Shown piece by piece: positions 5,762 to 35,578 of a stretch of DNA of 64,000 nucleotides (position 1 is the stretch's first letter; each line of letters starts with the position of its first letter). Where the stretch lies: contig JBDKTA010000048.1 in the NCBI GenBank assembly GCA_039680605.1, forward strand, positions 1-64,000, read 5' to 3'. A model generated the notes under the pieces. It worked only from the letters and a program-made list of their open reading frames with translations. It was not told the origin of the DNA and did no database searches. The translations under genes were made by a program, and so were the position numbers. This DNA is from Planctomycetaceae bacterium. Lineage in GTDB: Bacteria; Planctomycetota; Phycisphaerae; SM23-33.

Positions 5762-5882
5762 TGGGTGGCACAGCCTTTCCAGGCTGTGAGGCCACAGGCT
5801 GGAAAGCCTGTGCCACCTGTCGGATCGTGTCGCGGGCGTCTCGCCCGCGCGTGCCGAGGGCATCTTGCCCTCGCTGGGGCAG
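5762..5882. repeat. Strong hairpin plus GGGCGTCTCGCCC repeat behind ftsY
   Basis: GGTGGCACAGCCTTTCCAGG at 5763 onward is repeated inverted up to 5816, giving a near-perfect stem of about 24 bp with a very short loop. A copy of the GGGCGTCTCGCCC family follows (5829-5875). The hairpin begins 1-3 nt after the ftsY stop. It has no T-run, so it is not a standard intrinsic terminator, but it could stabilise the mRNA end. Confidence 0.75.
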
Positions 5883-5915: not shown

Positions 5916-5944
5916 TTGACAGAACCGGCCGATATAGTGATGAT
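5916..5944 (+). promoter_or_regulatory. Sigma-70-type promoter for tRNA-Asn
   Basis: TTGACA at 5916-5921, then 17 nt, then GATGAT at 5939-5944, with the better -10 match GATAAT at 5942-5947 at a longer spacing. It lies about 35 nt before the tRNA gene. Confidence 0.45.
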
Positions 5945-5980: not shown

Positions 5981-6052
5981 TCCCCGATAGCTCAATGGTA
6001 GAGCGAGCGGCTGTTAACCGCTAGGTTCTAGGTTCAAATCCTAGTCGGGGAG
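5981..6052 (+). tRNA. tRNA-Asn (anticodon GUU)
   Basis: 72 nt. The acceptor stem TCCCCGA pairs with TCGGGGA, followed by discriminator G at 6052. The D-arm has GCTCAATGGTAGAGC, the anticodon stem AGCGG/CCGCT encloses CTGTTAA with anticodon GTT, and the T-loop is GTTCAAATC. CCA is not encoded. A GIY-YIG cassette with terminal inverted repeats begins 1 nt behind it. Confidence 0.96.
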
Positions 6053-6053
6053 T

Positions 6054-6551
6054 CCTTCGACTCGCTGCGCTCGCTCAGGACTTCGTCCTCACGGCTGCAC
6101 GGCGTAGAGTCAGGGAAACTGTATCCTGGGGAAGCGAGTCGAAGGATGCTGAGCGAACGAAGTGAGTCGAAGCATTCCCTGATCGCGGCGCTCGCTCAGG
6201 ATGCTGAGCGAGCCCAGCGAGTCGAAGCAGTCTGGCACGTTTACATCCTCCTCTGTCGCGATGGTGCGTACTACGTCGGCGTAACCAATGACCTCGAGCG
6301 TCGCTGCAGTGAGCATTTCACCGGCCGCGGCGGCCACTACACCAAGTACAATCCGCCCCTCCGCCTGGCATGGCACGAGGCTCATCCCACCCGCGCGGCT
6401 GCCGAAGCACGGGAACGACAACTCAAAGGCTGGACTCGCCGAAAGAAACAAGCTCTCATGGCCGGAGACTTGGCGCTGTTGAAGAGACTCTAAGGAACCT
6501 TTCGCCCCGCCAAGAGCAAAGTCCTGAGCGAGCAAATGAGCGAGTCGAAGG
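6054..6551. mobile_element. Putative repeat-bounded GIY-YIG cassette behind tRNA-Asn
   Basis: A 28-nt sequence at 6054-6081 (CCTTCGACTCGCT...GCTCAGGAC) is repeated inverted at 6521-6551, with a 3-nt length difference in the middle. These arms bound a unit of about 500 bp whose only gene is a GIY-YIG protein. Further copies of the same repeat, in both orientations, sit at about 6130-6230. The left arm starts 1 nt after the tRNA 3' end. Seen: the arms, the gene and the position. Inferred: that the unit moves or has moved. No transposase is present. Confidence 0.5.
6146..6493 (+). CDS. Small GIY-YIG endonuclease-domain protein
   Basis: Protein of 115 residues. The GIY-YIG domain starts near residue 30 with VWHVYILLCRDGAYYVGVTN: the VYIL strand, the YVG (equivalent to YIG) and then ERRCSEHFTGRGGHYTKYN, followed by the helix RAAAEARERQLKGWTRRKKQAL. 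This is the UvrC/YhbQ-like single-domain form. Residues 1-29 (SERSESK..., AERAQRVEA) are encoded by copies of the flanking inverted repeat; ATG 6146 is the only in-frame ATG before the domain. Substrate is unknown; the family cuts DNA structures. A frameshifted relative lies at 11681-11805. Confidence 0.85.
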   Translation: MLSERSESKHSLIAALAQDAERAQRVEAVWHVYILLCRDGAYYVGVTNDLERRCSEHFTGRGGHYTKYNPPLRLAWHEAHPTRAAAEARERQLKGWTRRKKQALMAGDLALLKRL

Positions 6552-35344: not shown

Positions 35345-35578
35345 TTGCCGCGGAGCGTCCCGAAGGGACGCAGGAACATAGCCGGGGGCAAACCTGAGCG
35401 AGCGAAGCGAGTCGAAGGCGCCGCCTCCGGAAAGGGCATCAACAGGTTTGCCGTCCCGAAGGGGCGGCTGGTACCGGCTCGAACAGCCTGCCCGCCCCTG
35501 CGGGGCGGGTTCAACTCAAGGCCCGATCCGGGGGCCGCGCTTCGCTTGCCCCCGGCTATGTCCTGAGCGTCCCTCCAG
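35345..35578. repeat. Large imperfect inverted repeat
   Basis: Arms CAGGAACATAGCCGGGGGC (35371-35389) and GCCCCCGGCTATGTCCTG (35548-35565) are complementary with one extra base. Inside lie a SERSESK-type repeat (CTGAGCGAGCGAAGCGAGTC, 35394-35413) and CCCGCCCCTGCGGGGCGGG (35490-35508). Outside the arms are GGGACGC/GCGTCCC copies. No gene in the 389-bp gap 35270-35658. Confidence 0.75.

Follow-up and report, generated by a model that had tools for sequence, protein, structure and literature searches.

The Ssn nucleases of Neisseria, single-strand-specific enzymes with a GIY-YIG domain, reportedly cut repeats in single-stranded DNA, and the family treated here may be their kin. A second point of comparison is SegB of phage T4, a free-standing GIY-YIG enzyme encoded between tRNA genes that targets a tRNA intergenic region (PMC2988022). 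A third is provided by the REPINs, inverted doublets of REP repeats that are linked to RAYT, a TnpA-like enzyme (PMC3116915, PMC8266576). Minimal standalone, Slx1-like prokaryotic GIY-YIG domains appear in the 2006 survey of the superfamily, where the keywords tRNA, rRNA and repeats turn up no link of this kind (PMC1564403). Searches of the open-licence literature brought up no description of GIY-YIG enzymes together with tRNA or tmRNA ends or with REP-like repeats, and because coverage of that literature is partial, the novelty of what follows is provisional.

The locus considered here lies in a stretch of 64,000 nucleotides (the window) from a draft genome of 5.23 Mb in 72 contigs. From sequence comparison, the element that it carries is probably one copy of a widespread miniature element that lands at the exact 3' ends of tRNA and tmRNA genes and would be driven by its own nuclease.

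A tRNA-Asn gene, five repeat copies and a nuclease gene

The features of the window that concern us are the following:

5916..5944, + strand: sigma-70-like promoter of tRNA-Asn (10/12 matches)
5981..6052, + strand: tRNA-Asn(GTT), mature 3' end at the discriminator G6052
6053..6083, + strand: repeat copy 1 (left arm), abutting the tRNA end, with the same junction in relatives
6053..6146, + strand: stem-loop 1, with a 14-bp stem (6053-6066/6133-6146); ssDNA fold z -4.7
6133-6146, - strand: repeat half-copy, inverted partner of the start of copy 1
6146..6175, - strand: repeat copy 2, inverted relative to copy 1 (ATGCT...AGCAT)
6183..6230: hairpin of a half-copy (6183-6201, + strand) with a copy (6201-6230, - strand); ssDNA fold z -3.8
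6146..6493, + strand: ORF of the GIY-YIG nuclease, 115 aa, catalytic domain 6233-6448
6519..6551, - strand: further repeat copy (right arm), absent behind the genes of relatives
35394..35416, - strand: gene-less repeat copy (L212), elsewhere in the window

A sequence-only reading of this DNA had described two inverted arms around a GIY-YIG gene, the left arm starting 1 nt behind tRNA-Asn and the right arm serving as its partner. Arms, gene and tRNA are all present, but the repeat has five copies or half-copies here, of which the arms make up two, and neither the gap nor the partnership stood up. ARAGORN ends the tRNA at 6055, counting TCC as a CCA-like end; because mature tRNA-Asn stops at G6052, the repeat (TCCTTCGACTCGCT...) begins at 6053, with zero gap, and the sequence from there reads TCCTTCGACTCGCTGCGCTCGCTCAGGACTT. 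The outer arms are indeed complementary (100% over the 13 nt of 6054-6066/6539-6551 and the 15 nt of 6069-6083/6519-6533), the right arm being 3 nt longer in its middle. The left arm nevertheless pairs better internally, 6053-6066 matching the half-copy at 6133-6146 in 14/14 nt, and stems equivalent to this one, of other sequence, are present in relatives. In single-stranded DNA folding, either outer arm alone does no better than shuffles. The right arm is probably a solitary repeat copy.

No target-site duplication is seen for a cassette bounded by the outer arms, no duplicate of the tRNA 3' end was found at the window element, and an Rfam scan of the spacer returned the tRNA as the only known RNA. 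A search for a syntenic empty site found ftsY adjoining tRNA-Asn in 0 of 20 other tRNA-Asn loci of the family. Behind ftsY in the window (5764-5817) there is another inverted repeat (GTGGCACAGCCTTTCCAGGCTGTG / CACAGGCTGGAAAGCCTGTGCCAC), which also occurs behind a tRNA-Phe (L210).

The ORF belongs to the GIY-YIG family by its Pfam match (PF01541, E 2e-18, 66.8 bits against a cut-off of 22.6). Its active-site residues Y33, Y43/G45, R53, H57 and E90 are conserved, with Y33, Y43, R53 and E90 retained in at least 98% of 154 relatives. The only usable start, ATG 6146, lies within the repeats, about 28 N-terminal codons being repeat sequence, and the protein begins MLSERSESK. A defence or phage gene was considered and set aside because the nuclease has no PADLOC or PHROG match. 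The GIY-YIG gene is alone between the repeats: the window element contains neither a tyrosine nor a serine recombinase gene, and no HUH/Y1 RAYT-type transposase is linked to the window repeats, the GIY-YIG gene being the only one that is. Sequence prediction places the sole promoter-like site ahead of the nuclease gene at the tRNA-Asn promoter, and a scan of the spacer between tRNA-Asn and the gene finds neither a terminator-like site nor a promoter of the gene's own.

The link to stable-RNA gene ends across genomes

Relatives of the gene were drawn from genomes of the host class (71) and from GTDB genomes of many phyla (80), one genome per species and mostly draft. Each locus was oriented, and tRNA and tmRNA genes were then located with ARAGORN, with Rfam as an addition. 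In 30 of the 71 host-class loci a tRNA or tmRNA gene on the same strand ends within 300 bp upstream of the nuclease gene, and in none does one lie on the opposite strand; chance would supply 0.15 such loci at about 50 tRNA genes per 4 Mb (p about 1e-63). Counted per 100 kb, RNA genes reach 148 in the first 300 bp upstream, as against about 2.6 in the outer bins. On the downstream side, 7/71 loci have a tRNA or tmRNA gene at no more than 300 bp, likewise with 0 opposite. Rfam adds tmRNA neighbours at two loci (L162, L180) that ARAGORN had overlooked. The pattern recurs in a wider-phylum sample obtained with another query (11/28 with an upstream RNA gene, 0 opposite) and in the GTDB set, where 7 of the 80 loci have a tRNA or tmRNA neighbour and 0 an opposite one; the latter include Acidimicrobiia and Peregrinibacteria (tmRNA), Verrucomicrobia (tRNA-Ser, tRNA-Asn), Methylomirabilota (tRNA-Asn) and Omnitrophica (tRNA-Gln). 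The earlier proposal that the tRNA 3' end is the target applies well outside this one locus: these placements support the tRNA 3' end as a recurrent and exact landing site of such elements, in the host class, the wider phylum and other phyla. According to Rfam, three related GIY-YIG genes lie within 23S rRNA genes (L155, L164, L165), where they apparently replace helix tips of the rRNA.

The RNA-linked loci fall into two architectures. In class A, to which the window element belongs, the last base of the RNA gene is followed by stem-loop 1, then by a second hairpin (the same repeat, inverted) and then by the gene, and the conserved unit is this inverted doublet between tRNA end and gene. The stem sequences vary by locus (TTCGACTCGC, CTCGATGCG, CCTGCTTCGC, CCGCCTTCGCC, and others); complementarity is kept, the first stretch of stem (at least 8 nt) being followed by its exact reverse complement in 18/24 class A elements, which happens in 15% of cases if the elements exchange their starts and in 0.5% if the sequences are shuffled. 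We considered whether the repeat mimics the tRNA T-loop (TTCGACTC), and dropped the idea, since the sequences with which other sub-branches begin at this RNA-end junction (TCCTGCTTCGC, GTCTTCG, TTAGAG) bear no relation to it.

In class B a short distance separates the tRNA from the gene behind it, and the gene in turn is followed by 22-39 nt copied from the 3' part of that tRNA (L002, L029, L147, L172, L173, L175). In both tRNA-Asn cases of this class the copy begins in the anticodon stem-loop, and the TAA of the loop serves as the stop codon of the gene. In a variant (L014, L144, L145, L158) the intact tRNA follows the gene and a mutilated 5' copy precedes it; the copy at these four loci is a pseudo-tRNA (Pro, Ile) in which the anticodon arm has become a CCCG..GGG mini-hairpin. 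The genome from which the window comes has two small GIY-YIG genes, both behind tRNAs (Asn, Leu), and holds one of each architecture. The second gene (L002, C68:36074-36280, - strand) lies 17 bp behind tRNA-Leu and is followed by an exact 22-nt copy of the tRNA-Leu 3' end, which a 20-nt palindrome splits at the T-loop.

Copies with and without the gene

The window repeat, whose recurrence here and in relatives exceeds chance, is a low-copy repeat in its own genome, with five copies elsewhere in addition to the five at the nuclease locus; one of the outside copies sits 38 bp behind a tRNA-Leu. A larger GC-rich palindrome (CCGGGGGC...GCCCCCGG) adjoins or encloses the gene-less copy at 35394-35416 and another one (L211). 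Ordinary 3' flanks are the rule among the 50 tRNA genes of this genome. At the 3' ends of tRNA-Ala(tgc) and tRNA-Ala(ggc) (L185, L205) there are gene-less hairpin doublets of a sister branch (CTCCA, then GTCTTCG... from the junction on), and tRNA-Pro(ggg) (L218, C25:119939-120014) has a gene-less 3'-end duplication. At this last locus a second copy of tRNA 3' end and flank follows some 70 nt further on, with no gene in between and with the junction sequence of the gene-bearing L172.

Wide occurrence of the arms without the gene had been named in advance as the finding that would end the mobile-cassette idea, and it is what we find: the repeat is present in 34/100 relatives, with gene-less copies at RNA ends and up to 150 copies in one genome (150 in G097 and 53 in G047, control matches numbering at most 1). 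Mobility of the repeat itself survives, because half of the tRNA-anchored copies found by motif are gene-less at the same exact site. These came from a scan of 298 genomes of the host class for a T-loop followed by 13-16 nt and TTCGACTCGC, which gave 26 matches as against 6 for the reversed control. Twenty of the 26 lie at the last base of an RNA gene called by ARAGORN (+/-1 nt). A GIY-YIG gene accompanies 10 of these (Asn, Ala, tmRNA) and is missing from the other 10 (Ala, Ser, tmRNA). Gene-less copies at the exact RNA end look like non-autonomous copies of a mobile repeat.

The congeners G008 and G028 have tRNA-Ala(ggc) in common, and its flanks align on either side (81-90% upstream and 88% downstream). 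What separates the tRNA end from the following gene differs: in G008 it is a nuclease-bearing class A element of 490 bp, in G028 another doublet, which is gene-less. The 13 tmRNA ends that were compared comprise five gene-bearing, four gene-less, two relic-like and two plain ones, and the state differs within genera (G034/G008/G032; G074/G052; G515/G406/G495/G435), the two-sided flank alignment being incomplete here. The genus of G008 also carries a MITE-like palindromic repeat of about 150 bp, seen upstream of the tRNA-Ala at L007, with 69 matches in G008, 32 in G032 and 54 in G034.

Readings of the element and its relation to known systems

A tree was built from 156 nuclease domains; it rests on 85 columns and leaves many forks open. 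RNA linkage is concentrated in two parts of it, the label needing 16 changes as against 40.5 in shuffles. The type of RNA is clustered beyond chance on this tree, yet it has often changed: at least 23 changes among 47 genes and 11 types, where the shuffled mean is 31.0 and the minimum 27. In a large third branch only 2/79 genes are RNA-linked, its members being mostly flanked by other palindromic repeats, and because these nucleases have flanking repeats without the tRNA link, a tRNA is no need of the whole family.

A host system of the Ssn type is one rival reading. The nuclease would then act at its cognate palindromic repeats, cutting single-stranded DNA that enters the cell or is being replicated and so tuning DNA uptake or genome rearrangement, with repeats and gene kept for the benefit of the host and the tRNA location secondary. 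Palindromic repeats do flank the family well beyond tRNA loci (flank-to-flank inverted repeats score at least 30 in 55/104 loci, as against 12% of mismatched pairs). One relative (L033) is flanked by ATTCCCGCGTGCGCGGGAAT, an instance of the dRS3 pattern of Neisseria, ATTCCC(N8)GGGAAT (PMC3898611), which fits a kinship with Ssn. Such a system would account neither for the junction at the precise RNA end and the strict orientation nor for the variety of RNA types and the tRNA duplications of class B, and we consider it unlikely.

A passive niche, in which genes and repeats inserted at random persist mainly at tRNA 3' flanks because these tolerate insertions and supply read-through transcription, the nuclease having no preference for RNA genes, would account for the co-orientation of every RNA neighbour (0 opposite) and for a nuclease gene in which no promoter of its own is seen. 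Random insertion would not, however, begin at the last base of the RNA at locus after locus, carry copies of tRNA 3' halves or lie inside 23S rRNA, and we regard this explanation as quite improbable. A classical terminal-inverted-repeat cassette, moving as one unit between 6054-6081 and 6521-6551, can hardly be right, for although the gene is all that its two inverted arms enclose besides repeat sequence, three further repeat copies lie inside, the left arm pairs better with one of them, the right arm is not conserved behind the genes of relatives and no target-site duplication is seen. Of the mobile cassette first proposed, then, repeat mobility stands, with congeners differing at an orthologous tRNA-Ala, and the self-contained terminal-inverted-repeat unit is unsupported because its right arm is not conserved.

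Our best reading is accordingly of a REPIN/RAYT-like or homing-like element, putatively driven by its GIY-YIG nuclease and read through from the tRNA promoter. Its anatomy is well supported: the genomes compared show its placement to the base, its orientation, its build as a doublet, copies that lack the gene, its presence in many genera, and gain or replacement at an orthologous tRNA. For the cutting mechanism we infer the following. The nuclease would recognize either its repeat or the junction at the tRNA end, the DNA probably being single-stranded or folded into a hairpin, and would nick or cut there. Through repair or replication a copy of the repeat, accompanied by the gene or not, would then arise at another RNA-gene end, and gene-less doublets would therefore be non-autonomous, as in REPIN/RAYT, with gene-bearing ones as drivers, in the manner of a homing endonuclease. 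Insertion after the mature 3' end would spare the RNA, and the nuclease gene would gain read-through from the tRNA promoter. The sister branch has a second architecture, with the gene behind a tRNA and a duplicated tRNA 3' end. More tentatively, and with somewhat less than even confidence, one may see here a new class of mobile element of about 100-500 bp, in which GIY-YIG nucleases would target the ends of stable-RNA genes and move hairpin doublets, with or without the gene, using neither transposase nor integrase. Its possible targets, offered with the same reserve, would be the 3' ends of tRNA, tmRNA and 23S rRNA genes, with the sister branch landing in the interior and duplicating the 3' half.

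Genomes commonly contain small GIY-YIG genes and hairpin repeats, and their annotation usually gives no function. Linking them to exact stable-RNA gene ends would provide a target for them and a mechanism open to testing. Bacterial repeat mobility would gain a transposase-free path beside REPIN/RAYT, and the high variability of tRNA and tmRNA 3' flanks would become easier to account for. Another possible return is site- or structure-specific nucleases with cognate sites directly legible in the genome sequence.

Set against the described systems, the window element resembles tRNA-integrating elements in having the tRNA 3' end as its site, and its sister branch (class B, L002) in having a 3'-end duplication, but it has no integrase, no cargo, a length of a few hundred bp and no duplication of its own. 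With Ssn it shares a small standalone GIY-YIG nuclease beside copies of a cognate palindromic repeat that also occurs elsewhere without the gene (five and five copies here, up to 150 in relatives); it differs in its exact anchoring at tRNA and tmRNA 3' ends, its inverted doublet and the few copies in its own genome, and cleavage of single-stranded DNA is here only putative. Like SegB, the nuclease is encoded in or next to a tRNA region that would be its target, here by directly adjoining a tRNA. Unlike SegB, these are chromosomal bacterial genes, with many RNA types, a hairpin doublet, an exact 3'-end junction and gene-less copies, and of homing in the SegB sense (copying into a cut, unoccupied allele) only the outcome is seen, as gain or replacement at an orthologous tRNA. 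Finally, the element is like REPIN/RAYT in its inverted doublets of short palindromic repeats, many of them gene-less, with one linked nuclease gene, and departs from it in that a GIY-YIG enzyme takes the place of the HUH/Y1 enzyme, the repeat sequence is another one and the site is at tRNA ends.
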